Shown piece after piece: positions 3,365-31,512 of a DNA stretch of 64,000 bases (position 1 is its first letter; every line of letters starts with the position of its first letter). The DNA comes from Symbiodinium sp. CCMP2592 (lineage: Eukaryota > Sar > Dinophyceae > Suessiales > Symbiodiniaceae): NCBI GenBank assembly GCA_905221615.1, contig CAJNDT010005557.1:543630-607629 (forward strand). Reading direction: 5' to 3'. The notes below the pieces were generated by a model that was given only the letters and a program-made list of their open reading frames with translations, ran no database searches and had not been told where the DNA came from. The position numbers and the translations under genes were made by a program.

Positions 3365-3428
3365 TCAGTCGACGGGCTTCGCCAGAATCGCCACAGCGCT
3401 GTGGGAAAAGATGCCGCCGTTCCCGTAC
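3365..3428 (-). CDS. Exon 22 of thiolase-like gene (stop)
   Basis: CGAG|G acceptor, then [20 protein letters not shown] and TGA. This is the family's final strand; the usual catalytic Cys of the C-x-G motif is absent. Confidence 0.92.
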
Positions 3429-5751
3429 CTCGTGCATTCTGCATTGAGTCTAGACCCTACCTATCAATTCCGTTGCAGTTCCGATTTTGGGCACAACCAA
3501 TTCCATATGTAGGATCCTATAACAACCGAACCACAATGAGACTACAGGTAAACTCTAAACCACCAGTTGTTTCGGCTCGTTACGGCATGAAGGTTCTGGT
3601 GTCGGCACATGGAGGAAAGGGTTCATGCAAATTAGGATTGTAAGGATGCAGCTTTGAGGGTTTATCGGAGACCCTAACTTCTACATTTGCTGGATATCCG
3701 ATGATGTCTCACAGATACGTTTCAACGGCATCAGCCGGTATGCGCTCTCGAAGATGACCCCTAAGCCTCCAAACCCTTGAGCTCAGCATCTGTGTTGAAC
3801 CTCCGTCCCAGCTATGAATGAAAGTCGATCTGCGGTACAGTTCCAGAAGGGCAATCCAACAAAGAAATATGTCTGAGAATGTGAATGTGTATAAGGACAA
3901 AATGCAAATTACTAGGTGCCAAAAGGTTTCTTCGAAGTACATGTCTGAATACGTGATAGCGCCCTTCTCAAAGCTCATACAAGGCCCCATACTTACCCCT
4001 TCCCTATTCCCTTGTTAGGTCATTTCTTGTTCGTGCTGCATGGGTGCAGGCACCCTTATAATACTCCTTGAAAGAACCCTTGTAAAAGTAATCCTTGAAG
4101 TTGCTTAACTGGGCTTTGAAGTAACCAGGGAGAAAAAAGTATAGACTTTTTTCTCATGATTGGATTCTTTTAAGTAACAGGTCCCAAAAAAGTATTAAAG
4201 TATGGTACTCCAAAGCCCAGTTAACGTAACCCTTAACTCTGAAGGCCATGAGGGTTCTATACTGGAAGCCGTGAAGGACCCTTTAAAGGAACCCCCTGTT
4301 GGGGCTACTTGCATCCGATCCCCTGAACCCCAAAACCCTAGACCTTTAAACCCAAAGACCTACACCTCAAACCCCAAACCGAAACCCTTAAACCCTAGAC
4401 CCTTAAACCCTCAAACCTGAATGCTTGCTATAGGGGCATTACCAATTAAGGTTTCGGGTCCCAGTATACTATAATTACTATGAGGAACGCCCAAAACAGT
4501 ATAGATAATTATTTAGGCCCCTCCCCTTATACAACCCTTTAGAGGAACCGTATAGGTAAATCTTTAGGCCCTATAGTACAAGAGCCTTGTAAAGCTACTT
4601 GCATCCGATCAGCACGAGAGCTCTTCGCACGTTCCTCACCTGCCGCGCACCGGCAGTCTCGGACAGCTGCTCACCTGGGGTTTCGGGGTCCTTTCAGGGA
4701 TCTTGAAGGGTTTTGCTTAGGGTGTAGGATTTATTAGGGTGTGGGGGTTCGAGGTGTAAGTGTTTAGGCTTCAGTGGTTTGGGGGTTTAACTGTTTTTAG
4801 TTTAGGGGTTTAGGGGTTCAGGGGAGTTGTTGGGGGTTTCTGGTTTGGGGGTTTAGGGGTTACAAAGGGCTGGCATCGGAAACGGCGAGGATAGGATCTT
4901 TCAGGGTTCCTAGAAGGGCTCTTTAAGGGTACCCCAAAAGGCTCTACAAGGGTTACTATACAAGGCTACGGGTTGGGAGTTTAGGGCGAAGAGTCTGGGA
5001 TTTCGAGTTGCTTACTGGATGTCCTATGAGGCTGCAGGCGGAGAAAAGTATTACGTTCTCAGGCTTCAGGGTTTTGGTGGCATCATTAGGGCTTGGGCAT
5101 TATGTTGGTGGGGATTGGGTCGAGGCTATAGGGGAGGGTTGTTGAGGGTTCTGATCTAGAGATAGGTTCAGGGCTTAGGGCTTAGGGTTCCAGGGATTGT
5201 AAACCTGAAACTTAGACTCCTAGCCTTGAACCTTTTCTCGGGATTTAGATTTGCGGGTCAGGGTTGACCTCACGGTACTTATAAGCCTAGCATCCAAAAA
5301 AGGACCCTAAGCCCCACAACTCTCGCTACCTAGGTCGCGTACTTGTCTAACAGGTTGCCAGAAGTTGGTTCAGGGCTCAGGGTGTAGCATTCCCAGCCCT
5401 AGACCCCAAATCCCGTACAACTGACAATCAATCATTACTGATCCCTCGTTTCATTCGGGAGTGATGAAGGCTGCTAGGGTCTGGGATTCTGTCTCTGTGC
5501 TTTGGATTGGAGCTTGGTAGCTTGCTTGAGCGCATAACAAGACTTCGGCCAAGCTTCAAGACTCACCTAAAAGAGATTAGGGTTTATGGCCGGAGTTTCG
5601 GGCTTTGGGGTTGGCACGACTTCCCGCGTAGGGTGGATGTTCGCACGCCTGGTACCGCTTCTAGTTGCTACTGCGAACCCTCCTCCTCCTTCTACTACTG
5701 CTCCTCCTACTACGCCTCCTCCTCCTCCTACTACTACTACTACCACTACTC

Positions 5752-5788
<37 letters not shown>

Positions 5789-8700
5789 CACTACTCCTAC
5801 TACTACTACACGACGACGACCGACCGTCTTACTAACTCGATCAGGGCTTTGTAATGTTTTATAATATAAGCTGCTATACGGACTTACAAGGCTTTAAAGC
5901 GTTAAGGGGCTGAAGTCCTAGGGAAGTAATTCTGAAAGGCTTCCTCTTCTAAGACCTATGCAGGGGCCCATACATACACTCTCCGCGTACTTCACGATTC
6001 GAACCCTAAGGCTCCAAGTACCCTTATAGTAGATACTTAGGCCTTAAACTACCTATATAGGGACCCCTTTAAGGCCTAAGTATCTCCCCTAAACCCTAAA
6101 CCCTAAACCCAAAACCCTAAACCCCTAAACCCTAAACCCTAAACCCTAAACCCTGGGAGCCTTTGGGGAACTTAGACCATTGATCTCAAGAGGACCCACG
6201 CCGCAACTCCGAAGCCGAAACCCTCTGACACGACTATGCCTGTTACTTGGAAGGTCTAGGGTTCCTTAAGGGCCCCTTTAAAGGGATCTATAGGGATTCT
6301 ATAAGGGTATAGGGTTTAGGGTTGAGGGGGACTTAGTAACTGGTTATTTTAAGGACTTACAAGTACCATAACCCCAATTAGGGTCCCTTTTAGGGTACTT
6401 ATAAGTCTACTTACTACTTACTTACTAAGTCGCCCGACCCTCCAAGTACCCTAAGCCCCCAAGCCCGTAAATCCTAACTAGCCCAATCTCTAAACACTTT
6501 GCAGATGTGGTTTGGACCTTGGGAATTGAAACTTGCGAGCCTTGGTTTACCATCGTCAGGGTCCATGTGCTTATGCAGTATACTTAGGCCTTGAACGTGC
6601 TGAGGGCCACAGGAACTGAGAATGCAACATGAACCTGTTATATAACCAAAGGTAGCGACATTCCTTCGTTACGTTCCTATTTAGCTTGAGCCACTACAGT
6701 AGAGCTGCGTGTGAAGTACCTGCCCTGGTTCTGAATGCGTCAAGGCGCATGCTTCGATGATATTGTACCTCGGCTAACTTTGTGCGAGGAGGCGAGTAGG
6801 CATCACTTATTCTCTCATTATTGTTATCACTCTTGTGATTGCTGCAGTATGACTATATAACAACTCATATTTCAGCTACCCAGTGGCGCAGGACCTAATG
6901 TGGTCGGCTTCCCCGACGTTTATTCACTGACTGTTGAGGACTAGACTGAACGGTGTTGGGGAAGATCATACAAAAATATAACAAGGACCCCTAGCCCCCC
7001 CCCAAAAAAAAACACAAAAAACACATAAAAAGAAACAAATGTGATTCTAAAGGGGCACTAGAGTAAGCCTAAGCCCTAAACCTAAGCCTACCTGAAACCC
7101 AAATACCCTGCCTGTTTAAGGACCTGTATCAGGAGTTCATAATATGATTGTAGTATAATATACCGCAAAACTCTATTCTATTTAATAAGGCCCGTATGGT
7201 ATGTGTTTGCTCTGAGCCTCTGCGGCCTGCAAGAGCTTCTCGTGCCGGGGCAGACAGCAAGTCCGCATACCACTATCATTTAACTGCGAAAGCTGTCACA
7301 ACAAACATGTTTCCCAGACTTCTTATGAACACATGTGGAAATACGGAGCTCTTCAGCAGACGAAGAAGAAGCGACGACGACAACAACAACGACAATAACT
7401 ACAAGAACAAGTCATCAACGCAGAAACAGTAACATTTATCATCTACTAAGCACAAAACAAGGACAATAACAACAGGAACCACAGCAAGATACAATAAGTA
7501 TAATATCACTGGCAACAGCGATGGGAACATTAACTGACAATAAGCATCATCACAACACTATTGACAACATATTACTAACAACAGCCCAACCCTGAACACG
7601 AAATACGATCAGCAAGCGAATAAAACGACGCCTCGATGCAGGGCTGTGGGTCTAAGTTTTACCTGGACCCCCAAAAGAACCTTCCTTTGTCAGGATCCCT
7701 ATTATCATGTCATTATATATGTCAACAAGGTAGGATATTTGGGGTCCCCTGCACCATAGAACCCTACTATAGATCCCTTTGAGGAACCCTTTAGGAGGCC
7801 ACGGTGCATGGCTGGCACCTCCCAGGGTGCTCCAAAGGCCAGCAGACCCCCATGGGTGTTCACTGGAAACCTGGGGGCTTAGGGTGTACCTTAACCCCGA
7901 ATAACCTACCTTTTTAAGGACTCATATAAAGCAATCATAATAGGGAGCCTTAAAAAGGTAGGTTTTTCAGGGTTAAGGTAGGGCTTAGGGCTGAGGGTTT
8001 AGGGCTTAGGGTTTTTGTTGAGCACCTCTTTCTCCAGTGCCCCGAAAGGTCTGAGACGCTTAGGGTTTAGGGAACCGGGGGAGTTGATAAGAGTAGGGGT
8101 CATAATTCTTAACCTACAAGTAGAATACTGTTGATGGTACCAGACTATGGGAATTATGATATATTCCTGATTATGGGTACTCCAGGATTTATATCATAAC
8201 CGTAGGATTCCCTTTAGAACCCCATGTGCTAGACCTAAGAGTAACCTAGGAATAAAAAGGGTGCCCTTTTTGGTTTAAAGGGGGTTATAAGGGAACCGAA
8301 CCCTCAAAAAGGGAATAAGGGCCTACTCTGGGTCCTAGTGTGTGTTCACTGGCGACCTGCGAAGCCGATGTGTAGGTTTCGGTTGAAACTGAGAGCTCGA
8401 TACGTATAGGGGAAAGGAGGGACCCTTAAGGGGTCCCTTTAAAGGGGGCTATAGGGATTCTATAAGGGTATAGGGTTTAGGGTTTGGGGGTTGAGGGTTC
8501 GGGGCTTAGGGTTTAGAGTGTATTAAAGAGGAAAAGGAGGGACCCTTAATGGGGACTCCTACCCTAGAATGGGCTATATAATGGGTGTATAGTGGCTATA
8601 TTAAGGGTATATACCGAGGGACCATGAGTGAAGCTACGGTTTAGGGTTTAGGGTTTAAGGTAGGGGTTTCGGGTTTAGGGGTTCAGGGTTTGAAGGTTTA

Positions 8701-10316
8701 TCATGAGTATTAGTCTACGAGTCGAATCGGGTTCCCTTGTCGGGTTGCCCTAAACCCTAAACCCTAAGGGTTATAGTCTAGGGGCATTGGTACACATTCT
8801 GGTTAGGCTTGCCCTTGACAATGTTAAGAAGGGATACCTTACGGAACTCACGAACTGAACAACTAAGTATTTCGGCTTCTATATTACGGCTCAGGGTGTT
8901 TAGATGGCCTTTTGAAGTATAGCGTTCTGGGGAGGGGTTCGGGGGGATTCAGCAGTATTTAGGACTTACCCCCAGGGTCCAAGTACCTAATAATCATATA
9001 CTCTCCAAAATCCTAACCTACATAACTACGATCCTAAAACCGAGTAGATAATTAATGGGTCCTTTGGGCACTTGGGGTTAGGTTCATGGAGTCTAACTAC
9101 AAGTGTTTAAGGCATGACTTTCTGCTAAGAAGCCTCAGATTTGAAGTTGGAGTCGGGCCCAAGGGATCTAATCCACTGCTCTGGTGGCAAAGACTCTCCA
9201 CAAGGGGAACAGGAGGGACCCTTAATAAGGACCCCTAGGTAATACCTTAATATACCCATTATATAGCCCATTATAGGGTAGGGGTCCCCCTTAAGGGTCC
9301 CTCCTGTTCCCCTTTGACTCTCCACACCACCCATGCCTATATGGGCCTTTTGTTGCCGGGGAGGGAATATTATGTAGTATAGTAAAACGGAGTAGAAACC
9401 TTAGTTACCCAGACCAGCTCCCTAAGGGTCCAAGTGCCTAATAATCATATGCTCGCCCAAAAATAGTAACCTACATAACTACTATCCGACACCTGGTACC
9501 TAATTATTGGTTCCTTTGGACCCTCAGGGGTCTAGCAGTACCCAAAAAGGGCTCCAAACCGCCCTACCGCGATGCCGCAGAACTGCCATGGGTGCAGGCC
9601 GGGCCACCCCTTCGCAGAAAAAAAGACCTATCTTAGGTACTGCTCCCCATTCAGTAACAGTTGAATAATGTTCATGGTATAGATATATTAGGACGTTAAT
9701 AGGAGCCCTACTATAGACTGTTCCTGTATGGGAGCAGTACCCAAGATCTATCCCTATGCGAGGTGTCGACTTCAGCAATCCCCAATTTTGTTGTACACGA
9801 TTACGGCTCTAGATTCGACAGTAAGGGACATCAAACACTTATCTTCGCACTTGGGGCTCTGCATTGAACAACAAGGGAAACTGAACAAAGCATCCAAATC
9901 GATACCCAGTTTACACTGCACGTAAGAACCGCCCCGCCCTCGCAACGCTGTGAGGGAACCAAGTTCTAGTCATAGTTGGGGGATCATGAGACTTAGTAAC
10001 TTGGGCTATAAATAAGGTAACTGTATTTATAACTACTATTAACTCCAATTAAGGTACTTACCGTCGTAGTTACTAAGTCTCAAGATAGCCAGGGGCCCTG
10101 CATCACAAGGTGGGTTTCTGGTAGGTATGGGTCTAGGACACGCGGACAAGCAGGTAGGTCACATGTGAATAGAGTTGCAGTTGTGCAACCTTGATAGATA
10201 TGTGTGTAAAAACATCAAGAAGCGTCTATTTTTCTGAAAAACAAATCAACAAATCATTCAACAAATAAACAAGCAAATAAGACTGGACATAAATACATAT
10301 ATATATATATACATAT

Positions 10317-22000: not shown

Positions 22001-24605
22001 GTAACTTAGTAGTAGCATAAAGTAATAGCATAAGAAGTATTGGCGCTAGTGGTCGTAATAGTATTGGAATGAGGATGGGCACTACTGCGCTGAGTATGCA
22101 CGTTGACTTTAAAGTGCTTGTAGGCCCCAGCCCAAGATAAGCCCAAGATCAAATCATGTACGGACCCCTGGAGTTTAAACCCTAAACCCTAAACCCTAAA
22201 CCACTGCTGTAGCGGTCAGGAGCGGCTGCGAGTCCTTTTTACATTACTACTATTTGCTTAAGAACCCCCAAAAAATAGAAAATAATAATCCCTATATTAC
22301 CCCTATAAGGAATATATTTTTTATTTTTTTGGTGTTCTTAAGCAAATAGTAGATTAGGGTTACTTTGAGGGTCCCTTTGAGAGATGCTTTCAGGATTCCT
22401 CCGCTTAAGCAAGTAACTGCGCAGTGTCCGTCGAGGTAGCTTAGGATCTCTACAGACTAAACCCCCCCCAAACCCTGAACCCTACACCCTTGGAGACCCT
22501 AGCCCTAAGGGTCCAAGTACCTAATAATCATATACTCTCACAGATACTAACCTACATAACTACTATCCTGAACCCAAATACCTGATTATTGGGTCCTTTG
22601 GAATTTTGGGGTAGGGCACACCTGATCGGATTTGGGGTTTACTCGGGTTTAGGGGAACATAAACCTCGAAGAAGTGAACCAAGAAAGGTGCCCCAAAGAG
22701 AACTTGAACATCAGCCCAGTATCCCAAAAAAGGTGTAGGATTGAATCTAAACCCTGAGCTCTGCACCCTACTCTAGGGGCCTGAATAATTACCTATACTA
22801 TTTTTTGGGGGGACCCTTATCTTAATCCAAACCCTACTCTAATTCTTGACGCCCCTACATTAGGTGCTTTTCCGGACCCTTAGAAACAAGTAGAGCCCCA
22901 AAAAAGCACATAAGCAAAAATTAGGATAGGGATATCCCAGGGATATAACTATAAAATGCTTATGCTTATGTGCTTTTTTGTCCCCTAGACAAGAGCTTCG
23001 AGGAGGCACGGATCGCGGCATCCTTGATCCGCCCGCCGTAGGAACCTCTGCTCCAGAACGGGTTTGGGGTTTTGGAATTCGTAAGGTTTACCTTCAGCCG
23101 GAATAACCTACCTTTTTAGGGTTCCTTATTATGATTTCCTTATATAAATCCTTGAAAAGGTAGGTTATTCCGGCTTAAGGTAGGGTTTAGGGTCCAGAAC
23201 AGCTGTAGGAGCTTGACAAGGATTTCGGGTGTTTGTGCTGTGGTCCAGAACGGTCCGTGAGAAACTGCGAAGGGAAATCAACTACCTTACTTAAGGGTGC
23301 ATGTACCCATAAAGTATATACGGTGGTCCTACCGTAGCATGTCGATTTGCCAGCATGTAGCTAGATAGGTAGGTAGGTAGGTATAGTAAGTAGGTATGGG
23401 TAGGTATAGGTAGGTAGGCAGCCAGCCAGGCAGGCAGGGTAGGTAGGCAGGGCAGGTAGGCAGGCGGCAGGTATAGTATGCAGGTATAGTAGGTAGGTAA
23501 TTAGGCAGGTTGGTGGGATGCTTGTCCATACCGTTTTTTCTTCGATTGCCTTTATCTAGAAGTCTATCCAAATTTATCTGCTTGTGTCTGTCTATGCATC
23601 TGTCTGTCTATCTGTCTGTATAAACACAAACATAGGTATCGGCAATCATGTGCATATATATATACATATACATATACGTACTTGTTTACTCCTGGATCTT
23701 ATGTTTTGCTTATGTTTATGTATGCATACATTCACTCATTGCCGCAAAAAAACTTGTCGATTTCTCTGACCCCTCGCACTCAGCCCTCAAACCGCCTCAT
23801 TGATCATACACCCGAATCATTATAACACATGGGTCTGAATAGGTAGAAGAGGGTTCTGGGGTGTTTTACGGGAGCATTCTTTTGGGATGCTGGCTAAGGG
23901 AAGATTACTCCTAATCTAAACCCTCTACCCGAACTATGCAGACCTCTGTATTCACGACAGGTAGCTCCTCCGTGTTCAGGGAGGACACGGCGTCGCCGGC
24001 AACGACTGCGACGGCTTGGCAGCGCTCGTCCTGACAGGGCTTGTGGAATTAAGGCTTCATCCTACACCCCAAGCCATAATCTTAAACCCTGAACCCTAAA
24101 CCCCTAAGCCCTGAACCCTAGAACCTGAACCCAAATCCCTGAACCCTAAACTTCAACCTTAAACCCTAAGCCCTGAACCCTAATCCCCGAACCTTATATA
24201 AAACCTTAACCAAGATGGAGGTCAAACGTTTTGCAACGATTTCATCGAGTTACTATACTTTCTGGTCCAGCATCCTAGGCGAACTAGAAGTTACATAACC
24301 CTTTAGGTGAAAAAAGGGGTATAGTACCCAGAAATGGTTAAAGGCTGCCTGCTCTACTACTATGCATAAGGTTTCACCAGGAGTTCATACATGTTTTTAG
24401 GCGGTCTATGCAGATTCCATGACTGTTTGTATGCTATACCCCCCTTAGAAGCATACTATTTGTTTTATGAACCAAATGGAACTTATTCCGAAGGAGACTA
24501 TAGTACGGTTGATGATATAAACCCTGCATTACCTTAATGACCCTAAACTATGGGAATTATTGTATATTCCTTATTACGGGTAATGCAGGATTTATACCAT
24601 CAACC

Positions 24606-24696
<91 letters not shown>

Positions 24697-27600
24697 GCTT
24701 CATGTCGGACCTTTGTTTAGGTGTTGTGTTTTTCCATCTGTTGTTGCATTCGGAGACCAAAGGATTTATATCATCAACCGTAGGAGCTCCTGAGGGCATT
24801 AGAGTTTCTCCAGATCGGACCAAGGGTTTAGGGTTTTAGGGTTTTAGGGTTTAGGGGTTTAGGGTTTAGGGTTTAGGATTTAGGGTTTTAGGGTTTAGGG
24901 TTTAGGGTTTAGGGTTTAGGGTTTTGGGTTTTGCTTAGGTACGGCCCCCATACAGTAAGAGTCGATAATAGGGCTACTATTAGGGTCCTACTATATCTAT
25001 AGGTATCTATATTACTAATATTATTCAACTATTATTGAGTGGGGGCCGTGCCCAACGTGTTACCTAGTTTGGGGGGGTCTAGGTAGGCCCCAAACCCTAC
25101 ACCTGTTCCCAATACTTCTTGAAGCTATGCAGCTTTTTTTGCCCCCGTCCTATACCCAAAACCTGAAGCCCAAAAACCTTAAACCCTACAACCAAATCCT
25201 TAAACTCTAACCCCAAGGGTCCACAGGACCCAATAATTAGTATTCGGTTTCAGGATAGTAGTTATGTAGGTTAGGGTGTTGGAGAGTATATGATTATTGG
25301 GTACTTGGACCCTTGGGGTAACCTTGGCCGAACTATGCTAATCTCGGAGGCCTCAAAAGGTGGGATGAAGGTAGGTGGGATATTCCCAAATAGGAGTCCT
25401 TATACAAGGGATCCTTAACCCTACCTACCTTCATGCCACCTTTTGAGGCCTCCGCTAATCCGGAACTCTACTATATTGTTTCTTAGAAAAATGTACCCTA
25501 AACCCTAAACCCTAAACCGAACCAAAGATTAAAACAAATATTTCTAAGTACCCCTGAGGCTAGCCTTGGCCACACTTTGCTAATCCGTTTCTAGGGACCC
25601 CTTTAAGGCCTAAGTATCTACTACAACTAGGATACCAAGGGTTAAGGGGTTCCTTAAACGGGCCCTACCCTATAATGGACCATATAATGGGTATATAACT
25701 AAGATACCCAGTAACCTAAGAATAAAAAGGCCTTTCTTTGTGGTACTGGGTAACTTTTTAAGGAACCCAGGACTACAAAAAGGGAATAAGGGTACTACTG
25801 GGCATCCTAGACTATAAAGATACATGGAGCCAATTTGCGTGCTAATCCGGAGGAGGAGAGCTCCTTCACCATGCGCACGGCCTCAAGCAGCCCGCTCACC
25901 TGGCAGTCTGAGCGATAACAGGCCCCTTGAAAGGCAACCCTTAAAGGAGCCCTTAAAAGCAAGGATTCAGGGTTTAGGGCTTAAGGTTTAAGTTTGATTA
26001 TGGCTCAGGGTGTAAGATAAGCCCTAAATTCCCCAAGCCCTGATAGGGTTTACAGTTTACGGTTTAGGGCTTAGGGTTTAAGCACACTTTACAAGGATCC
26101 TTACAGGCGCCCCTACAGGAACCCTAAAAGGAACCCTTAAACGAGCCTTTAAAGGAGCCCTTAAAGGAAACTTGAGCGGAGCCCCCAAAGCAAACTTTAA
26201 AAGGAACCCTGCGAGAAAGCTTAAAAGGAGCCCCTGAAGGAACCCTGAAAGGCAACCGTAAAGGAACCCGTAACGGCAAGTCCGAAGGAACCTTACGGGA
26301 ACGCTGAAAGGCACCCTGAAGGAGCCCTTAAAGGAACCCCTACACTCCCTAAAGTTTAAAGGAGGTCTGGACGAAGCCCACGCAGGCCGTAAGGCTAAAG
26401 GATCCGGGGTTCACGGGTGCAGGGTCTGGGGGTTTAGGGTTTCGGCTCCAAGGAACGAATATACATATACTCTTCCATACTTGCTAACCCACATAAGTGC
26501 TATCCCGAACCCGGGTACCTCATTGTTGGGTCCGTTGGTATCCAAATCCCTTAACCATGCACCTTGCGACACAGGTTAATGGCAAGGCAATCACGGGTTC
26601 CGTTTTGGGGGATCTTCTTTGCTAATGTAGGGGTCGTAATACTTAGTAGTACTATTCCCTCATACTCCCTATATACACTTACGGCACACTTAACCCCAAA
26701 ACTTTACTCCTACTAATGACTAAGGCGGCTATATTGAAACAAAAAGCCCTACAGCATCCCTATATTGAAATAAAGCACTACCGGATCCCTATATCGAAAT
26801 AAAGCATTTCAGGATCCTTACCAAGAAAAGAAGCCTTAAAGTAACTAAACCCTCAACCCTACATCCTAAACCGGTAGGTCCTGATCCCCTTAAGCCTTAA
26901 GGGATCCCCATACTTAAAGGATCGTGGGAATAACTAGGGTAACTATACTTATAACCCCAAATTAAAGTACTTATAACCTTACTTACTGAGTCTCATGATC
27001 CTTCAAGTAGGGCTTGAACTTTTACAAGGGTTTAGGGTTTAGGATTTTCGGTGGTGTTTAAGGTCCTGGGTTTAAGGGTTTTTAAGTCCCATGATCCTTC
27101 AAGTACAGTACCCCTCCCTAAACGCTAAATCCTAAATCCTAAACCGGTAGGTCCTGATCCCCTGAAGGGATCCCCATACAGTACCCGTTTTATGACAAAG
27201 CAGCCCAGGCGCAGGTCCCGCGCCGCCGGTGTCGATGGTGCGCACGCGCACAGCAGGTCTGGGGAGAAGGCCCACCTGCCTTGCGGGCTTTAGGGTTTCG
27301 GGTTTTAGGGTTCTAGGGCTTTAGGGATTTGGGGTTTTAGGATTTAGGGCTTTAGGGTTTCTAGTTCATGGTCGGGATAGGATTAAAAATCTAAATCTTT
27401 ATTCAGGGGGCGGGGGGGGTGGGGCAGGGTTGCACATGAATGTGTGCTTCCGGGGGTCCTGCTTCTTGGGAATTATTGAATGATGGAATCATGCGGAAAA
27501 ATCTAGGTAATCTTCTTGCGCTGTAAGACGTAGCATTTCCAGAGTTTCTTCGGCCTGCGGGTTTATAAGTCTACGGCTTTGGGTCTTATGGGCACAGATT

Positions 27601-30600
27601 TGGGATTAAGGGTTCCACACATCGATTCGGGGTTTCTAAGGGCTCAATGACGGCTTCAGGAAAGCGTTGTAAGAGGTTCTTGGGAGGATCTTCAGATGAT
27701 GCATAACTGCAGCTCGCAGCTACCCCGGTTACACAACTCATCTTCATACTCTGAATTCCGAGTCCTCGTGTTCCCATGTGACTTATAATACAAGGGATCG
27801 AGTGCCTATATCGTATACATGTGTATGTATGTATGTATGTATGTATGTATGTATGTTCATATATACACACACACACGCATACTTTCTCTCGTCAAGGCCG
27901 AAGCATATAGCATTGAGGGTTTATTTAGGTTTTTACGACGTGTTACAAGTCATATACGGGCCTTCATACTTTGACTCTGTCTTTAGGACTTGTAGCATCA
28001 ATCGCAGATCAATAGTATATATACACATATATATATATGTATAGAGGGACAACAAAGGGATGCTACTGGTGATGATTCCGACGCATATACTACAAGGACC
28101 CGTCATTTAAGTACAGGATCCCTCCGCATGGCCTATTGAAGGGTCACGGTGGGGCTTGCTGTAGGAGCGTCGAGTAATTAAAGGTTTAGGTTTAGGCTTA
28201 AGGGTTATTGGTTAGAACTCGGTTCCGAGGTATATCTTGGTAAACTTGTTCATAGTTAAGAACTTCTTAACGGACCCTCATGAACACGATTGCCACTTGG
28301 TCATGCTCCGATATTCTTGACTCAACAAGAATCAGGTTGGACATCGCGTTTCAAATTCAGGATGAAGATCCGGCGGCGCTTAGGGTTCTGCCCAAAACAT
28401 CAATGAATCTGTGTGAGCCGTGTCCTTTTTTTAAAATTCCGGCTCTCGAGTTTTGGCACATGGGAGTTTCCGAAAACAGGGGACCCCAATATAGTACCTT
28501 AAATAATCGGATCCCCATTATAAGGACCCCTAAATAAGGTACCCCTAATTTTCGGAAACTCCCACACTCCAACTGCAGACAAAGGGCGTCGCTAAGTTAT
28601 GGGCCTCCATGAAGTGCGGATCGGACAGTGAAGGCACGGCAATGAGACCGTCCAACTCCTCAGGGTGTAGGGTTAAGGGTTTAGGGTTTAGGGTTTACAG
28701 GTTATAGTTCAATCCAAAAGGTACATGTACCTATGCAGCATACGGCTACCCACAATTCCAAATGTGTAGTGCACACATACATGTAGGTTCGTGCCTCGTC
28801 ACTTCAACCAGGGCTTTCGATAGCTATGATGGCTCAAGTTTCGTGTTTCTACTGCGCTTGGGTACTTGCTCTTTTTCTCCCCTGTCGTCGCCCTTGCTGT
28901 CGTCTTGCTGACTATGCCAGCTCCCCAAGTGATGGCTCTGCTAATAGTATGCAAGACGAATCATGAGCACCGGCTTCTTGGCATCCAGAGTCCCCCGAGG
29001 TTGATGCTTCCGGAAGCAGCCATCCACATGCAGAGTTCGTTTTGTTCAAACATCTCGCTCCGTTCTTTCGGGTAACCTCAGCCTCAGTAGCGAGCACGGA
29101 GCAGTCTGAGCGAGGACGTTCCGGTCTGAGCGAGCGCATTGGACAGGTAGACAGAATGAATGACTGCCGCCGAACGGCTGCAGAAGTGCATCCAGTCTTT
29201 TGTGGAGCCATTATAGAAAAGGAACCCCCAAAATAGTATACGTAATTACTAAGGCTCCTACATTATTCTGTTGCCACTGTACGACAGCCATGACATCGCT
29301 CGTGGCTGTGGTGCTCATAGGCCGTGCGTTTTATGCGGGTGCGGCGACAACGGTGCACCGAAGACCAAGGGAGGAGTAGACCGGAGGGTAGCTGAGTTAG
29401 GGTTTAAGGTTTAAAATCCAACAACGCAACACCGACGAGGGTGGGGAAGAACGAAATGACAACCCTTTGTGAAACTTTGGTATTAGTCGGAGCCGCCGGA
29501 AGAAGAACGGACAGAATGCACGTCGTATCTATCTGTGCATACGTATAACTCATACTCCGCTCGCGCTCCACGCTCTCATAAGGAAGATGAGACCCCGTTA
29601 AAGTGTTATAGGGTCTAGGATTTAGGGCTTCGGGGCTCCTTTAAGGGATACTGGGTCCGGGTAAAGCGTACGCCGAAATCCGCTCCTCCATGACCAGGCC
29701 GGCCGACTTCAGCGCCTTCTTCAGCGCTTCCTGCATTCAACACGGTTTAGGGATTAGGGATTAGGGTTCAGGGTTTTGGGTTTTGGGCTACACGGTTTAG
29801 GGTTTAGGGACTAGGGCTCAGGGTTTGGGGTTTAGGGCTACACGGTTTAGGGTTTAGGGACTAGGGCTCAGGGTTTGGGGTTTAGGGCTTAGAAGTGTAA
29901 GGTTTCAGGGTCCAGAGAGGCTCGTTTCAAGCGTTACCAGAGTTTAGGGTGAGATTATAAGGGCCCTTAAGAGCTAAAATAGGAGGAGGGGAGGGGTTGT
30001 AGATGGACGAACGACGAAACAAGGAGAACTCACTAAGATTTGTTGCGGGACCTCAATAATCAATGTTTGGCAGCTTGAGGGTTCTAAGGTGCAGGATTCG
30101 GGTGCTGAAGGATCAGCTGTCGGACGTTGCTTCCGGCACCCGGCAACAAAGGGACAAAGAGCCTCAGCAATTGGAGCAAAGGCTTGGAACATGGGGGTTA
30201 TGAAGTGCCACGGAATATTTGTATGTACTTTAACTTTATACCATATACACTTTAGTAGTACACACAATCGTCTTTGGGCAGGCGATGGCGTAAGCGTGTT
30301 AACGGGTTAAAGACAGGATACATATAGCAATACCTCCCACAACCTTCACAACGTCTTCACATCTTCAACCCCCCAAGCCCTAAACCCTTCACAACATCTT
30401 TATAACTTAACACTAAATACGACGAACAAAACCTCCCTGGTCCCTCAACCCCACGCCGCTCCTGCATCAACTCTGTGGCTGGCCGGCCCAACTTTCCGAG
30501 CTTTGTCCTAGGGTTGGGGGGTGGGTGTCAGGGGTTGGGGGTCTTCGGGTATCGGGATTAGGCTCGGTTTTGGTTCTAAGTGGCGATTGGAGTGGGTGCA

Positions 30601-31512
30601 GGTCGTGGCAACATATAGCGAATCACCCCCAAACCCTAAACGCTGAACCCTAAACCCTAAACCCCAAGCCCTAAACCCTAAGACCCTTTCATTTACCTCG
30701 AGCTTGAGCCCAATCGGCCACCGAGCCTTTTTCGATCCGTACATTAACCCCAAGGGTCCAAAGGACCCAATAATTAGGTACTCGGTTTTAGGATAGTAGT
30801 TACGTAGGTTAGGATTTCGGAGAGTGTATGATTATTAGGTACTTGGACCCTTGGGGTTAAGCCCTACATAAAGTCTGCATTGGAATCCTTTTGGTTAACC
30901 AGTGCTATGGTAAGGACCCTACAGTATGAAACTGATTAAAGGAATTGCAATGGATACTGTAGGCAAACCCTAACTGGCTCAACCATAAACCGTTGGTAAG
31001 TAGCGCGCTTCCAGCATAGAGGCTAGTGGGCGAGTGTGCGTCTAGACGAAGCACAACACAAAACCCTCATCTAAGATCTCATACTCGAAACCTTAAACCC
31101 TAAACCCTAGACCCTAGTGGCCTTGAAGCGGAGACCTATAAGCTGTCAACACCCCAACAAAAGGATCCGCAGCCCCGAACCCTGAACCTTAAACCCGAAC
31201 CAGAGCCTCCATCTAGACCACCATTGTGGAATGAGGCCCCAAAAGATGCTTTTGGGGGACCTAGTTCCATAATGGTAGTATATATGGAGCCTCTGGGTAA
31301 GACCGAAATATTTGCACTTCTAGGTTCCCCAGTATCCCCAGAATAAAACGGCACTGTCCCCTAGTATTTGGTTTTGGTGAGGGAACCACAGAGGAAAAAA
31401 ACTGTGAACAGTGTAGTATTACTCCTCGTGAACTTAGACTTTCTAGCCCAAGGCCGACGGCGAGGTTCATCCCATGGCCGACAATGCGCACGGTACTCAC
31501 CGGCAGTGGCAT
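3365..31512 (-). CDS. Thiolase-like protein (SCP2-thiolase / TLP family), 22 exons, 396 aa
   Basis: Split gene read 31512 to 3365. Exons: 31469-31512, 30462-30507, 29686-29730, 28588-28658, 27213-27279, 25843-25899, 23966-24030, 23010-23045, 21902-21955, 21151-21216, 19466-19499, 17177-17264, 16519-16553, 15248-15322, 14142-14168, 12323-12364, 11762-11833, 10566-10624, 7808-7870, 6749-6768, 4614-4674, 3365-3428. They sum to 1191 nt with one frame and a TGA. Seen in order: N-terminal [192 protein letters not shown]. Known: these match the thiolase fold of SCP2-thiolase/TLP proteins, about 390-440 aa. The nucleophile site reads GGAG and the C-terminal CxG site reads GNG, so both catalytic Cys seem absent; a binding or unknown CoA-ester role is inferred. 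The frame is open upstream of the chosen ATG, so the start is less certain, as are junctions 2, 3 and 11. No PTS1 at the C-terminus (AKPVD). Confidence 0.88.
4105..4225. mobile_element. Family AA palindrome
   Basis: AACTGGGCTTTGAAGTAACC opposite GGTACTCCAAAGCCCAGTTA. Intron 21. Confidence 0.85.
4430..4543. mobile_element. Family T palindrome
   Basis: TATAGGGGCATTACCAATTA to AGATAATTATTTAGGCCCCT. Lies between two 17-bp direct repeats (4304..4320, 4594..4610) in intron 21. Confidence 0.78.
4614..4674 (-). CDS. Exon 21 of thiolase-like gene
   Basis: CCAG|G acceptor, then (C)[20 protein letters not shown]. Donor GT|GC, three bases from a 17-bp direct repeat (4594..4610) that recurs at 4304..4320. 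Confidence 0.88.
5665..5820. repeat. (CTA)n trinucleotide microsatellite
   Basis: CTACTACTA and CTCCTC runs. Intron 20. Confidence 0.95.
6002..6170. mobile_element. Family C' palindrome with telomere-type insert replacing part of one arm
   Basis: Left arm and centre are intact to GGCCTAAGTATCT; about 80 bp of CCCTAAA repeats follow, then GGGAGCCTTTGGGG, the outer end of the right arm. Confidence 0.75.
6326..6448. mobile_element. Family A palindrome, diverged
   Basis: Begins GGGGGACTTAGTAAC and ends TTACTAAGTCGCCCGACCCT then CCAAGTA, with a GTTAT/ATAAC-type centre. Intron 20. Confidence 0.6.
6749..6768 (-). CDS. Exon 20 of thiolase-like gene (20-nt microexon)
   Basis: CGAG|G acceptor, 20 nt coding (M)YNIIEA, donor T|GC. 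Without it the frame between exons 19 and 21 breaks and the family's YNIIEA segment is missing. Confidence 0.8.
7360..7560. repeat. A/C-rich low-complexity tract
   Basis: CAACAACAACGACAATAAC-type sequence. Intron 19. Confidence 0.7.
7808..7870 (-). CDS. Exon 19 of thiolase-like gene
   Basis: CCAG|G acceptor, then [20 protein letters not shown] (NTHGG active-site loop). Donor AT|GC. Confidence 0.93.
7887..7980. mobile_element. Family N palindrome, probable 10-bp target duplication
   Basis: TACCTTAACCCCGAATAACC opposite GGTTTTTCAGGGTTAAGGTA. GGGCTTAGGG lies at 7875..7884 and 7981..7990. Starts 16 bp from exon 19. Confidence 0.87.
8125..8208. mobile_element. Family H palindrome, diverged
   Basis: GACTATGGGAATTATGATAT centre and CAGGATTTATATCATAACCG 3' arm. 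Confidence 0.65.
8229..8338. mobile_element. Family B palindrome
   Basis: 110 bp, a few differences from the 1149 copy. TGTG on both sides may be a short target duplication. Confidence 0.88.
8409..8618. mobile_element. Family F arm, reverse module, diverged family F palindrome
   Basis: GGGGAAAGGAGGGACCCTTA, then CCCTTTAAAGGGGGCTATAG and TTAGGG repeats, then GAAAAGGAGGGACCCTTAAT and a degenerate remainder. Confidence 0.75.
8969..9077. mobile_element. Family D palindrome
   Basis: CAGGGTCCAAGTACCTAATA with centre AACCTACATAACTACGATCC. Confidence 0.8.
9202..9315. mobile_element. Family F palindrome with 10-bp target duplication
   Basis: AAGGGGAACAGGAGGGACCC opposite GGGTCCCTCCTGTTCCCCTT. GACTCTCCAC is present at 9192..9201 and 9316..9325. 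Confidence 0.92.
9420..9530. mobile_element. Family D palindrome
   Basis: CTAAGGGTCCAAGTGCCTAA opposite ATTATTGGTTCCTTTGGACC. Confidence 0.82.
9976..10092. mobile_element. Family A palindrome, diverged
   Basis: GGATCATGAGACTTAGTAAC opposite TTACTAAGTCTCAAGATAGC. Intron 18. Confidence 0.6.
10285..10412. repeat. (TA)n/(CATATA)n microsatellite
   Basis: Intron 18. Confidence 0.95.
10427..10508. mobile_element. Family G palindrome, diverged
   Basis: GGAAATACCTTAAGCCG opposite GGATTAAGGTATATCCCTGA. Intron 18. Confidence 0.6.
10566..10624 (-). CDS. Exon 18 of thiolase-like gene
   Basis: TGAG|G acceptor, then [20 protein letters not shown]. Donor GA|GT. Confidence 0.85.
10944..11411. mobile_element. 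Long terminal-inverted-repeat element X (468 bp)
   Basis: About 50-bp inverted repeats (GATTTAGAGGGACCCCCCTG ... / ... CCCTTAGAGGGGTCCCTCTA then AATC). The interior carries a 10-bp tandem repeat, CACTAGCGCT-like, at 11071..11150. Longest such element here; no ORF, so presumably non-autonomous. Intron 17. Confidence 0.88.
11546..11641. mobile_element. Family K palindrome
   Basis: GAGGGTCCTAAGTACCTGTG with TAGAATGTAGGATT; ends GGTACTTAGGAACCTTTG. Intron 17. Confidence 0.75.
11640..11760. repeat. CCCTAAA-type tract
   Basis: Degenerate ACCCTAAACCCCAAA words immediately downstream (in transcription) of exon 17. Confidence 0.8.
11762..11833 (-). CDS. Exon 17 of thiolase-like gene
   Basis: TGAG|G acceptor, then [20 protein letters not shown] and SAGD. 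DCYP corresponds to the HDCF-type active-site motif of SCP2-thiolases. Donor GAT|GC. Confidence 0.9.
11850..11951. mobile_element. Family A arms plus module, flanked by 12-bp direct repeat
   Basis: Two A-type arm pieces (GGACTTAGGAAGTAAGG and GGGACTTAGTAAGTAAGG) flank reverse-orientation module sequence (AAAGGGATCTATAAGGG). GAAGCTTCCATT occurs at 11838..11849 and 11952..11963, a likely target-site duplication. Confidence 0.65.
12146..12273. mobile_element. Family A palindrome, diverged
   Basis: ACTTCTAGGAACGTGGGACT opposite AGGTCCCATGATCCTCCAAG. Intron 16, just before exon 16 is transcribed. Confidence 0.6.
12323..12364 (-). CDS. Exon 16 of thiolase-like gene
   Basis: TGCAG|G acceptor, then [14 protein letters not shown]. 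Donor TAT|GC. Confidence 0.92.
12407..12506. mobile_element. Family G palindrome
   Basis: CTTGATTAAGGAATATACCT opposite AGGTATATTCCTTAATTAAG; outer ends AGAGCCTCC / GGAGGCT. Transcribed upstream of exon 16. Confidence 0.88.
12632..12826. mobile_element. Family C palindrome followed by module
   Basis: Palindrome 12632..12737 (ACCCTAAGGGTCCATGTACC / GGGTACATGGACCCTTA), then CCCTAAA repeats and four AAAGGATCCCTT-type units to 12826. Confidence 0.8.
12930..13080. repeat. (TA)n and (GA)n microsatellite
   Basis: ATATAT run changing to GAGAGA run. Intron 15. Confidence 0.95.
13241..13433. mobile_element. Family E palindrome plus module with repeated 3' arm
   Basis: Palindrome 13241..13342 (GGGGGTTTCCGAAAATGGGG / CCCTAATTTTCGGAAACTCC), 60-bp module, then a second 3' arm (TAAGGTACCCCCTAATTTTC, 13404..13433). 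Same architecture at 52165. Confidence 0.9.
13521..13631. mobile_element. Family B palindrome with 14-bp target duplication
   Basis: Flanks ATACTCAACTTAGA (13507..13520) and ATACTGAACTTAGC (13632..13645) match at 12 of 14. Confidence 0.88.
13669..13732. mobile_element. Family V palindrome
   Basis: TTCTTAGGGGTTATAATAAC opposite TTTCTAAGTACCCCTAAG, directly after a family-B copy. Confidence 0.6.
14142..14168 (-). CDS. Exon 15 of thiolase-like gene (27-nt exon)
   Basis: GCAG|G acceptor, then AAARAAFSE, linking FSCE to [14 protein letters not shown]. Donor GAG|GC. Confidence 0.8.
14505..14538. mobile_element. Family H 3' arm fragment
   Basis: GGTAATGCAGGATTTCTATC then ATCAACAGT, directly after CCCTAAA repeats. 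Confidence 0.55.
15040..15235. repeat. CCCTAAA-type tract
   Basis: Degenerate CCCTAAACCCCCAAGCCC words, starting 13 bp from exon 14. Confidence 0.8.
15248..15322 (-). CDS. Exon 14 of thiolase-like gene
   Basis: CAAG|G acceptor, then [20 protein letters not shown] and VFSCE. Donor GAG|GT. About 21 nt of its start are duplicated inside the preceding intron (15518..15550). Confidence 0.92.
15423..15522. mobile_element. Family A palindrome, 3' arm lost
   Basis: Complete 5' arm (TACTTGGAGGATCATGGGAC then TTAGTAAG) and centre; replaced after TTATTTATAACTCTAG by a copy of the exon 14 start. Confidence 0.7.
15540..15760. repeat. TTTAGGG-type tract with GGGTAGTTGAGG units
   Basis: GGGTAGTTGAGG repeats at least five times among TTTAGGG words. 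Confidence 0.75.
16010..16123. mobile_element. Family A palindrome, full (114 bp)
   Basis: Arms TACTTGGAGGATCATGGGAC and its complement, 27 bp with few mismatches. Confidence 0.85.
16290..16495. repeat. CCCTAAA-type tract
   Basis: Degenerate ACCCCCTAAACCC words, ending about 24 bp from exon 13. Confidence 0.8.
16519..16553 (-). CDS. Exon 13 of thiolase-like gene
   Basis: CGAG|G acceptor; (S)[11 protein letters not shown]. Donor GCA|GT. Confidence 0.85.
16590..16662. repeat. (TA)n microsatellite
   Basis: TA runs beside exon 13's acceptor side. Confidence 0.93.
16668..16752. mobile_element. Family T palindrome, 3' end cut
   Basis: GGCCTTAATAATTAGAATAG GGTTTGGGGGCC-type arm, then CCAGAATGGTATAGG. 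Confidence 0.75.
16763..16863. mobile_element. Family A palindrome with 14-bp target duplication
   Basis: Inserted into ATACTACTATTATG, present on both sides (16749..16762 and 16864..16877). The target belongs to a family-S element. Confidence 0.85.
16866..16943. mobile_element. Family S palindrome, target of a family A insertion
   Basis: CTATTATGGAATTAGGACC opposite GGCTAATTCCATACTGGTAC. The 5' end was split by the A copy at 16763..16863. Confidence 0.7.
17177..17264 (-). CDS. Exon 12 of thiolase-like gene
   Basis: CAAG|G acceptor, then [20 protein letters not shown] followed by [20 protein letters not shown] is a hallmark thiolase strand. Donor A|GT. Largest exon, 88 nt. Confidence 0.88.
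17605..17827. mobile_element. Family A palindrome plus module with duplicated arm
   Basis: Full 114-bp palindrome (17605..17718), then a 71-bp module (17720..17790), then a second perfect copy of the 37-bp 3' arm region (17683..17719 equals 17791..17827). Both carry the private variant TTACTCACTAAG. Confidence 0.92.
17891..18001. mobile_element. Family B palindrome
   Basis: 111 bp, identical to 1149..1259; flanks unrelated. Confidence 0.9.
18652..18698. repeat. Short inverted repeat
   Basis: GGGGTCATCGTAGCTGCTAC opposite TAGCTACGACGACCCC; about 47 bp, single copy. Confidence 0.6.
18820..18925. mobile_element. Family C palindrome
   Basis: CCCGAAGGGTCCATGTACCC opposite GTGTACGTGGACCCTTAG. 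Intron 11. Confidence 0.75.
19041..19222. mobile_element. Family U palindrome with 40-bp tandem triplication
   Basis: TGGCTCAAAAGGTGGGATGA opposite ATCCCACCTTGTGAGGTC. Inside, a 40-bp unit (GATGAAGTAGGTGGAATGCT...) repeats at 19071, 19111 and 19151. Confidence 0.8.
19466..19499 (-). CDS. Exon 11 of thiolase-like gene
   Basis: GAAG|G acceptor, then [11 protein letters not shown], continuing VLMSR from exon 10. The donor is unclear: CTG|GG, or GC one base later with a frame cost. Confidence 0.75.
19500..19660. repeat. TTTAGGG-type tract abutting exon 11
   Basis: GGGTTTAGG words begin about 5 bp from the exon 11 acceptor, so the tract occupies the polypyrimidine region on the coding strand (CCCTAAAC). 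Confidence 0.8.
19751..19848. mobile_element. Palindrome Z
   Basis: TTTAGTTAGTAGGGAATGGA opposite TCCATTCCCTACTAAGCAAA. Single copy seen. Intron 10. Confidence 0.85.
20552..20641. mobile_element. Palindrome Y
   Basis: GTTCTCCAAATCGTCCCTTT opposite GGGGTCCGAATTTGGAGAAC. Single copy seen. Intron 10. Confidence 0.82.
21151..21216 (-). CDS. Exon 10 of thiolase-like gene
   Basis: GCAG|G acceptor, then [20 protein letters not shown] and S(R). The [13 protein letters not shown] helix is typical. Donor AG|GC. Confidence 0.9.
21902..21955 (-). CDS. Exon 9 of thiolase-like gene
   Basis: CAAG|G acceptor, then [18 protein letters not shown], matching the family's P-x-P-x-I-P-x-G-Y-D segment. Donor AG|GT. 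Confidence 0.88.
22247..22352. mobile_element. Family O palindrome
   Basis: CTACTATTTGCTTAAGAACC opposite GTTCTTAAGCAAATAGTAG; AT-rich centre. Confidence 0.92.
22503..22611. mobile_element. Family D palindrome
   Basis: CCTAAGGGTCCAAGTACCTA opposite TGATTATTGGGTCCTTTGG. Confidence 0.82.
22772..22863. mobile_element. Family T palindrome
   Basis: CTCTAGGGGCCTGAATAATT to TCTTGACGCCCCTACATTAG. Confidence 0.78.
22887..22988. mobile_element. Family M palindrome
   Basis: CCCCAAAAAAGCACATAAGC opposite GCTTATGTGCTTTTTTGTCC. Abuts the transcribed downstream side of exon 8. Confidence 0.87.
23010..23045 (-). CDS. Exon 8 of thiolase-like gene
   Basis: AGAG|G acceptor, then [12 protein letters not shown]. 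Donor CC|GT. Confidence 0.85.
23089..23182. mobile_element. Family N palindrome
   Basis: TACCTTCAGCCGGAATAACC opposite GGTTATTCCGGCTTAAGGTA; near-perfect arms. Confidence 0.9.
23289..23335. mobile_element. Family C palindrome, 5' arm only
   Basis: TTACTTAAGGGTGCATGTAC then CCATAAAGTATA; the rest is replaced by unrelated sequence and a (GTAG) tract. Confidence 0.6.
23360..23515. repeat. (GTAG)/(GCAG) tetranucleotide tract
   Basis: TAGGTAGGTAGG and CAGGCAGG words. Intron 7. Confidence 0.88.
23966..24030 (-). CDS. Exon 7 of thiolase-like gene
   Basis: GTCAG|G acceptor, then [20 protein letters not shown] and EE, the family's [10 protein letters not shown] strand. Donor GA|GC, phase 2. Confidence 0.9.
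24060..24205. repeat. CCCTAAA-type tract
   Basis: Degenerate CCCTGAACCCTAAACC words upstream of the exon 7 acceptor. Confidence 0.8.
24314..24362. mobile_element. Family I palindrome, 3' part
   Basis: TATAGTACCCAGAAATGGTT then AAAGGCTGCCTGCTCTACTA. Confidence 0.55.
24504..24784. mobile_element. Family H palindrome with (TAG)n expansion and repeated 3' arm
   Basis: Palindrome 24504..24608 (TACGGTTGATGATATAAACC / GGATTTATACCATCAACCGT), a 30-unit TAG microsatellite to about 24695, unique sequence, then a second arm GGATTTATATCATCAACCGT at 24763. Confidence 0.85.
24825..24935. repeat. TTTAGGG-type tract
   Basis: Nearly regular GGGTTTA repeats, the least degenerate telomere-like run here. Confidence 0.87.
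24939..25051. mobile_element. Family P palindrome
   Basis: TACGGCCCCCATACAGTAAG opposite TATTGAGTGGGGGCCGTGCC. Confidence 0.85.
25211..25319. mobile_element. Family D palindrome
   Basis: CCCCAAGGGTCCACAGGACC opposite GGTACTTGGACCCTTGGGG. Confidence 0.85.
25344..25453. mobile_element. Family U palindrome at a repeatedly hit site
   Basis: CGGAGGCCTCAAAAGGTGGG opposite CCACCTTTTGAGGCCTCCG. GCTAATC on both sides (25337..25343, 25454..25460). Confidence 0.87.
25475..25553. mobile_element. Family V palindrome interrupted by CCCTAAA repeats
   Basis: TATTGTTTCTTAG, then three CCCTAAA units, then AAACAAATATTTCTAAGTAC CCCTGAG-type arm. Confidence 0.6.
25591..25832. mobile_element. Family C' element interrupted by module and a B-like palindrome
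   Basis: Starts as the second half of C' (ACCCCTTTAAGGCCTAAGTA), is interrupted by module-like sequence (GGGGTTCCTTAAACGGGCCC) and a B variant (25700..25810, GTAACCTAAGAATAAAAAGG), then ends in the C' arm (AAAGATACATGGAGCC). Confidence 0.75.
25843..25899 (-). CDS. Exon 6 of thiolase-like gene
   Basis: CCAG|G acceptor, then [19 protein letters not shown], the nucleophile-loop helix. Donor TTA|GC. The exon end (GGATTAGC on the minus strand) recurs three more times inside the following intron. Confidence 0.9.
26090..26345. repeat. Tandem array of AAAGGAACCCTT-type units
   Basis: About 16 degenerate 16-17 bp units (AAAGGARCCCTTAAAGGAAC) expand the module's core motif. Intron 5. Confidence 0.75.
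26446..26550. mobile_element. Family D palindrome, diverged
   Basis: Keeps ATACTCTTCCATACTTGCTA, ACCCACATAAGTGCTATCCC and TTGTTGGGTCCGTTGG. Confidence 0.5.
26911..27105. mobile_element. Family A palindrome plus TTTAGGG-rich insert and repeated 3' arm
   Basis: Palindrome 26911..27009, then TTTAGGG-type sequence, then another 3' arm (AAGTCCCATGATCCTTCAAG) at 27084..27105. Both share CCTTCAAG instead of the usual CCTCCAAG. Confidence 0.8.
27213..27279 (-). CDS. Exon 5 of thiolase-like gene
   Basis: CAAG|G acceptor, then [20 protein letters not shown] and GP. This covers the nucleophile loop; the usual Cys is replaced by small residues (GGAG). Donor CCT|GC. Confidence 0.88.
27811..27870. repeat. 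(GTAT)n microsatellite
   Basis: GTATGTATGTAT run followed by ACACAC. Intron 4. Confidence 0.93.
28462..28563. mobile_element. Family E palindrome, simple
   Basis: GGGAGTTTCCGAAAACAGGG opposite CCCTAATTTTCGGAAACTCC, 102 bp. Intron 4. Confidence 0.9.
28588..28658 (-). CDS. Exon 4 of thiolase-like gene
   Basis: TGAG|G acceptor, then [20 protein letters not shown] and NLAT, a strongly conserved TLP segment. Donor AC|GC. Confidence 0.88.
28817..28838 (+). other. Possible relict dinoflagellate spliced-leader sequence
   Basis: Matches the 22-nt dinoflagellate spliced leader at 17 of 22 positions, with the last nine (TGGCTCAAG) exact. Known: retroposed dinoflagellate cDNAs can keep relict leaders. 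An ATG at 28829 opens a 45-codon frame (to 28966) with a hydrophobic start ([18 protein letters not shown]). It lies in intron 3, antisense to the host gene. A chance match is possible. Confidence 0.25.
29209..29270. mobile_element. Family T 3' part
   Basis: GGAACCCCCAAAATAGTATA CGTAATTAC-type arm ending GGCTCCTACATT. Intron 3. Confidence 0.6.
29686..29730 (-). CDS. Exon 3 of thiolase-like gene
   Basis: GCAG|G acceptor, then [15 protein letters not shown], the amphipathic helix that usually precedes the first variable loop of thiolases. The end may instead be 29683 because GAG is repeated at both boundaries; the protein is the same. Confidence 0.8.
29741..29890. repeat. Three 50-bp tandem units
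   Basis: Each begins CACGGTTTAGGG, at 29741, 29791 and 29841. Starts 10 bp outside exon 3. Confidence 0.9.
30462..30507 (-). CDS. Exon 2 of thiolase-like gene
   Basis: After a TAG|G acceptor it codes [15 protein letters not shown]. Donor reads CAG|GAGCGG (GA type). The sequence around its end (TGATGCAGGA) recurs at the start of exon 3 (GAATGCAGGA), a boundary direct repeat. Confidence 0.75.
30746..30859. mobile_element. Family D palindrome, full
   Basis: AACCCCAAGGGTCCAAAGGA opposite TACTTGGACCCTTGGGGTT. Intron 1. Confidence 0.87.
31200..31299. mobile_element. Family S palindrome
   Basis: AGAGCCTCCATCTAGACCAC to ATGGTAGTATATATGGAGCC. Confidence 0.82.
31469..31512 (-). CDS. Exon 1 of thiolase-like gene (start)
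   Basis: Codes [15 protein letters not shown] up to an AT|GA donor; joins exon 2 to rebuild the ATG codon. This Met lies about ten residues before the family's first beta strand. The frame stays open upstream (RYHATV before the Met), so an earlier start or further exon is possible. Confidence 0.65.

Follow-up and report, generated by a model that had tools for sequence, protein, structure and literature searches.

A spliced gene on the minus strand

The 64,000-nucleotide stretch of DNA analysed here (the window) comes from contig CAJNDT010005557.1 of the dinoflagellate Symbiodinium sp. CCMP2592, and carries on its minus strand, from an ATG at 31512 to a TGA at 3365, a predicted gene for an SCP2-thiolase-like protein (SLP), which splice-aware alignment divides into approximately 24 exons and 23 introns (Table 1). 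When joined, the exons give 1203 nt including the stop and encode 400 aa, with 0 internal stops. Exons are 20–75 nt in size (median 46.5 nt) and occupy 4.3% of the gene span, introns are 244–2695 nt (median 1054 nt), and exon GC is 62% (GC3 71%) as compared with 43–50% in the 2-kb bins of the window. An earlier note on this DNA had proposed a single spliced gene in one reading frame, about 96% intron, with the same two ends, all of which the model bears out, and the eight motifs that it quoted were all recovered in the 5' to 3' order given, within open islands of the minus strand, when 17 sub-strings were searched; its 22 exons, 1191 nt, 396 aa and longest exon of 88 nt are superseded by the figures above. 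The assignment of ATG 31512 as the start codon is uncertain, the reading frame upstream being open to 31584, with no ATG and no AG/G acceptor in that interval.

Table 1 Features of the window; exons of the SLP gene are in 5' to 3' order, and alternatives refer to the optimum of the second splice-aware run
Feature	Position	Strand	Length	Masking cost (nats)	Remarks
Exon 1	31469..31512	-	44 nt	0.7	ATG; GA donor; weak alone
Exon 2	30462..30507	-	46 nt	5.1	
Exon 3	29686..29730	-	45 nt	8.5	
Exon 4	28588..28658	-	71 nt	32.0	DPHFMEAH
Exon 5	27213..27279	-	67 nt	28.8	Gly88 at place of thiolase nucleophile Cys
Exon 6	25864..25899	-	36 nt	7.2	GA donor
Exon 7	23966..24030	-	65 nt	20.1	motif of earlier note
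Exon 8	23010..23045	-	36 nt	17.4	
Exon 9	21902..21955	-	54 nt	18.9	IPHGYD
Exon 10	21151..21216	-	66 nt	22.6	motif of earlier note
Exon 11	19473..19499	-	27 nt	9.0	
Exon 12	18384..18425	-	42 nt	11.3	
Exon 13	17459..17497	-	39 nt	16.9	
Exon 14	17177..17214	-	38 nt	9.9	alternative 17155-17214
Exon 15	16507..16553	-	47 nt	0.0	least certain; alternative 15898-15925
Exon 16	15248..15322	-	75 nt	31.7	motif of earlier note
Exon 17	14142..14168	-	27 nt	5.5	
Exon 18	12323..12364	-	42 nt	14.1	GDIDWFGLY; Tyr289 of YDCY
Exon 19	11765..11833	-	69 nt	30.2	DCYP; Asp290, Cys291, Tyr292
Exon 20	10566..10624	-	59 nt	11.6	
Exon 21	7808..7870	-	63 nt	38.0	Ala346 at place of GHP His
Exon 22	6749..6768	-	20 nt	3.7	YNIIEA
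Exon 23	4614..4674	-	61 nt	8.8	
Exon 24	3365..3428	-	64 nt	16.4	YGNGG; terminal TGA
114-base element, copy 1	1148..1261		114 bases		100% identical to copy 2
114-base element, copy 2	17890..18003		114 bases		16.7 kb from copy 1
Telomere-like repeats	1801..2430				one of many places
Foldback example	16010..16123				
Foldback example	37027..37142				
Foldback example	63741..63854				
Coding-like stretches	56468..57143	-	80 and 112 aa		two best-scoring in window

Ten rough pieces of the gene were joined into a 187-aa draft, which was used for searches of PDB and of bacterial contigs, and gave a Trypanosoma brucei PDB match at 5e-21 as well as five bacterial relatives in genome contigs; the draft had no match in NCBIfam or Pfam because much of the protein was missing, and the 400-aa model did match. 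Four of the bacterial SLPs (L001, L002, L003 and L005) became the rows of a profile, and L004, which shares 89–92% identity with the two remaining planctomycete sequences (L003, L005), was left out. A first splice-aware run, in which donors were limited to GT and GC and a general consensus was applied, scored 211.1 nats with 21 exons, ending exon 19 at 11762 and starting exon 20 at 10621; a second run on the minus strand of 2500–33500, with GT, GC and GA donors, gave 24 exons along the profile and an alignment with 64.5% identity to L002 across 386 columns. In the final model exon 1 was extended by hand to the ATG and exon 24 to the TGA, and exons 14 and 15 were taken from the first run in place of the two alternatives of the second-run optimum. 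The chosen pair aligns better to four of five relatives, worse to L001 (73 versus 76), and has a GC of 60% versus 48% for the alternative. All exon boundaries rest on homology and are to be read as predicted.

The spliced-profile score of the gene was 276.6 nats, as compared with 11.8–17.7 nats across 23 controls, comprising the plus strand of the gene region (12.4), the minus and plus strands of 33.5–64 kb (16.3 and 11.8), ten column-shuffled profiles (12.5–17.5) and ten Markov-1 DNAs (11.9–17.7). Exon-by-exon masking cost 3.7–38.0 nats for 22 of the 24 exons, and 0.0 nats for each of ten random intron stretches; exon 15 costs nothing because the program's own optimum leaves it out. We consider it almost certain that the gene is real and of the assigned family; it is very probably intact and presumably expressed. 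That the locus instead holds a decaying pseudogene, a reading to which the finding of a single copy lends something, is very unlikely in view of 24 exons in a single frame with no internal stop, dinoflagellate-type ends on all 23 introns and a protein that is strongly conserved along its length. It is of negligible probability that open islands were merely chained together by eye and by chance: tiny exons were indeed selected from many islands, and only five places reach E<1e-5 individually in a translated genome search, but every control fell far below the score of the gene and the PDB match stands at E=7e-123.

Splice sites and the surrounding DNA

Among the 23 introns of the final model, donors are GC in 12, GT in six and GA in five, and all 23 acceptors are AG/G. 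The scoring scheme of the splice-aware program favoured G after AG; with no base preference after AG and any G-starting donor allowed, AG/G was still found in 23/23, and 20 of the 24 exons were recovered exactly and 23 overlapped, the two hand-extended exons being unable to be exact. When any donor was permitted, 15/24 exons were exact and 19 of 21 acceptors were AG/G, and with any donor and any acceptor one exon was exact and 21/24 were still overlapped. Splicing by GT-AG only was rejected, the score dropping to 176.2 nats with 17 exons, four of them exact.

The predicted splice sites fit published dinoflagellate splicing. In the part of PMC10666404 used here, GT/GC/GA donors make up 28.8/52.7/18.5% in Polarella glacialis and 30.3/52.3/17.4% in Durusdinium trenchii, with an AGG acceptor in approximately 97% in both, whereas Amphidinium gibbosum (74.9/25.0/0.1%) and Amoebophrya (GT 99.9%) differ. 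The same tables give a mean gene length of 15–26 kb in five of seven species and, for the six species other than Amoebophrya, mean genes of 8.8–26.2 kb and mean introns of 486–4709 bp, and the portion of PMC4083563 consulted gives 19.6 exons per gene for Symbiodinium minutum. Exons of the SLP gene are shorter than the species means tabled in PMC10666404, which are 98.7–239.9 nt in those six species and 578.7 nt in Amoebophrya. Intron-rich genes of Symbiodinium, Polarella, Durusdinium and Prorocentrum share with the SLP gene the donor order GC>GT>GA, AG/G acceptors, long introns and many short exons. Because the published splice-site, gene-length and exon-count figures are similar, the intron-filled layout is ordinary for dinoflagellates, and the hidden 28-kb arrangement pointed out in the earlier note is real without being unusual.

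The 21-mer of the dinoflagellate spliced leader has 429 exact copies in the assembly (1.098 Gb, 5383 contigs) and 0 in a reversed control; no copy with up to three mismatches lies within the 64-kb window. Together with the splice sites, these copies mark the SLP gene as a nuclear gene of a dinoflagellate. Introner-borne introns would have direct repeats across their ends and inverted repeats at them, and the former were looked for by comparing the two ends of each intron. Matches at intron-end junctions numbered 70 as compared with 55.6 +/- 4.1 in 5000 permutations (p=0.0014), with p=0.0016 for the downstream part and p=0.18 for the upstream part, an excess in keeping with the repeated intron boundary sequences mentioned for dinoflagellates in the part of PMC7789003 used here.

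The window is also rich in repeats. Foldback (palindromic) elements of 50–222 bases, most near 100–120, occur at 52 places (including a small number of AT- or telomere-like false positives), or about one per 1.2 kb, belong to several recurring families and look like MITEs. Twenty-six of them start within the SLP gene, with 0 exon overlaps. Five Markov controls gave 0–1 such elements. One foldback end motif has 8,649 exact copies genome-wide and 0 in a reversed control. The identity of the two copies of a 114-base element (Table 1), of which two more copies exist at 91% and 73% identity, suggests recent movement or conversion. Degenerate telomere-like repeats related to TTTAGGG/CCCTAAA are scattered through introns and flanks, and include a tandem block with 15–16-base spacing.

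Scanning of 10 of the 166 coding-like stretches in the window yielded no Pfam family above its cut-off, and weak matches for two (E 0.058 and 0.23). The two best-scoring stretches, at 56468-57143, had no Pfam family above cut-off, and may represent a gene or a transposon remnant.

Family membership, distribution and history

A profile or family search had been proposed in the earlier note as a check, and it returned a full-length match: residues 6–396 of the 400-aa protein align to PDB 5ab4 (TbSLP of T. brucei) at E=7.4e-123, and Pfam Thiolase_C_1 is matched at E=8.6e-33. The next PDB sequence follows at E=3.5e-31, and the full-length similarity to TbSLP is thus well above that to other thiolase-like proteins. 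Identity to the dinoflagellate SLP is 54% for TbSLP, 63% and 64% for L001 and L002, which derive from Deltaproteobacteria/Myxococcales metagenome-assembled genomes, and 56% and 55% for L003 and L005. A family model, in which four of the five SLPs scored also serve as rows, gave these SLPs 722.9–739.9 bits, as compared with 122.5 and 80.3 bits for other thiolase-like proteins of genome G002. Pfam Thiolase_N scored 17.6 bits, below its cut-off of 26.4, and among NCBIfam models 23 families, mostly thiolase-like, appeared at E<=1, with 0/23 reaching their own cut-off. In place of HDCF the protein has a YDCF-type motif, here YDCY (residues 289–292), as in L001. Judged by its sequence the protein is an SLP, a new member of a known family, and presumably has the thiolase fold. 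With TbSLP (PDB 5ab4-5ab7), whose chain residues 1–19 lay outside the comparison, it shares the YDC motif, YGNGGIFS and further blocks, whereas TbSLP has YDCF instead of YDCY and groups with planctomycete sequences. L001 and L002 share an RDPxGxL stretch with it, and differ in being bacterial and encoded in one open frame.

Used as a query against the translated assembly, the 400-aa protein hit 15 places, 14 of them at the SLP locus and one elsewhere (E=0.33, 28% identity). With 20 first-look candidates scored, this search would have revealed a copy that was intact and intronless, or bacterial, and may have overlooked a diverged one divided into tiny exons. Within this depth of search a paralogue or retrocopy was rejected, with one locus found in the 1.1-Gb assembly, and so was bacterial contamination, as the window bears the abundant foldback end motif described above. 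Separately, assembly contigs C5051, C1002, C101 and C4334 have Thiolase_N matches in single long intronless open frames, some of which may be bacterial contigs or intronless genes.

Few of the sampled bacteria had an SLP. With a threshold of E<=1e-100 it was found in at least 1/377 genomes in the phylum of L002 and at least 1/392 in the phylum of L003, and at 1e-90 in at least 1/192 in the class of L001 and at least 3/154 in the order of L005, these being lower bounds from the best few candidates scored per genome (up to 4, 5, 9 and 12). All positives correspond to the five loci identified beforehand, and the G878 and L004 proteins are 100% identical. Plasmids gave no match with the 187-aa draft; with L002 they gave 335 records, all below 60% identity, with 20 of the 335 listed at approximately 34%. 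Viral contigs gave 27 pattern matches and 0 relatives.

In a tree of seven SLPs, a branch with 100/100 support separates the dinoflagellate SLP, L001 and L002 from TbSLP and the planctomycete proteins. A grouping of the dinoflagellate SLP with TbSLP was rejected (p-AU 9.9e-6, and 2.9e-5 with four outgroup rows) in a test that was chosen after viewing an earlier tree and that draws on a tiny sample, in which the eukaryotic SLPs are those of the dinoflagellate and T. brucei. With outgroups, support for the group of the dinoflagellate SLP, L001 and L002 is only 79/75, and long branches were flagged for the outgroup L030 and, in the seven-row tree, for TbSLP. Separate acquisition of SLP by dinoflagellates and trypanosomes is therefore best treated as a lead, not a result.

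Active site and proposed chemistry

Alignment to two thiolase-like proteins encoded in the same genome as L002, namely L030 and, in the C-terminal half, L031, places Gly88 at the nucleophilic Cys, Ala346 at the GHP His and YDCY at HDCF. We also aligned the protein to PDB 9myr, which we take to be CtSal, the steroid aldolase of Comamonas testosteroni, because the residues named in the CtSal paper fall, with their numbering, on the right letters. Tyr302, Asp303, Cys304, Tyr305, Gly89, Tyr165 and Gly391 of CtSal are kept in the dinoflagellate SLP (with Y289 opposite Tyr302, C291 opposite Cys304 and G88 opposite Gly89), and Gln161, Gln347, Gln352, His59 and Thr355 are not. The catalytic Tyr and Cys of the motif are thus present, whereas Gln161 of the oxyanion hole, as well as Gln347 and Gln352 near the Cys, are replaced by Ile146, Leu341 and Ala346, letters that are identical in the four other SLPs compared.

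The Tyr-Asp-Cys motif was found to be catalytic in CtSal in a 2025 study (PMC12329534), and since it is kept at 289–291, our best guess is aldolase-type chemistry on a beta-hydroxyacyl-CoA. The SLP would bind an acyl-CoA, Tyr289 would accept the proton from the beta-hydroxyl, the C-C bond would be cleaved by a retro-aldol reaction (or formed in reverse), and Cys291 would protonate the enolate of acetyl-CoA, in line with the mechanism put forward for CtSal (PMC12329534). We put this at little better than an even chance, because the lost Gln residues and the apparent lack of a DUF35 partner suggest that the substrate differs. The match to CtSal itself is only E=1.5e-26; CtSal works with a DUF35 partner and TbSLP without one, and no DUF35 or steroid gene was found in the nine neighbouring ORFs at the bacterial loci L001, L002 and L005, nor any gene family common between the three loci.

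A malonyl-CoA-binding decarboxylase, or an enzyme that forms C-C bonds and supplies lipid or sterol precursors, is a less likely alternative. In its favour, the measured activity of TbSLP is a slow decarboxylation of malonyl-CoA, which CtSal does not perform (PMC12329534), and the relevant part of a review (PMC9719944) has SLP taking part in the synthesis of sterols by procyclic T. brucei. That activity is, however, very low (kcat 0.005 per s; PMC12329534). Moreover, the gene id Tb927.8.2540 denotes SLP in the section of PMC9719944 concerned and SCP2-thiolase in that of PMC5993337, and the connection with sterols may therefore really concern SCP2-thiolase. Claims on a role of SLP in sterol synthesis hence need a check against their source for this shared id (PMC9719944, PMC5993337). 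A true thiolase, as the superfamily matches in PDB, Pfam and NCBIfam might suggest, is hardly credible and was rejected, since the catalytic residues are missing and neither Thiolase_N nor any NCBIfam family reached its cut-off. The earlier note had called the gene thiolase-like and SCP2-type: its superfamily holds by the full-length match, and 'thiolase' is the wrong function because the nucleophile and the GHP His are gone, and the protein should not act as one.

The best joint explanation, a spliced SLP gene at a single locus whose product would work by a retro-aldol type mechanism, has in our estimate a probability of about 0.72, a figure that blends those for gene and family and for the aldolase. 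A wider scenario, which we hold to be doubtful, would make SLP an acyl-CoA aldolase of bacterial origin, rare among bacteria, that would have entered eukaryotes at least twice, in a Myxococcota-like form in dinoflagellates, where it would then have gained approximately 23 introns, and in a planctomycete-like form in trypanosomatids, and that in both would act on sterol or lipid side chains as an aldolase and not as a thiolase.

A literature search, with most subscription papers outside its scope, found no paper on a thiolase-like protein in dinoflagellates, and within the same limited scope no paper on the SCP2-thiolase-like protein of T. brucei was about dinoflagellates by its title. An SLP in a dinoflagellate is a modest surprise, and its fragmented layout is normal for the group. 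Raw DNA is shown to suffice for recognising a dinoflagellate gene of 24 exons, and a protein described from trypanosomes is now placed in another eukaryotic lineage with an apparently different bacterial kinship. Dinoflagellate sterols are unusual, and if SLP is an aldolase a link between the two is possible, though speculative. If SLPs are aldolases, the dinoflagellate protein would offer a further source for assays.
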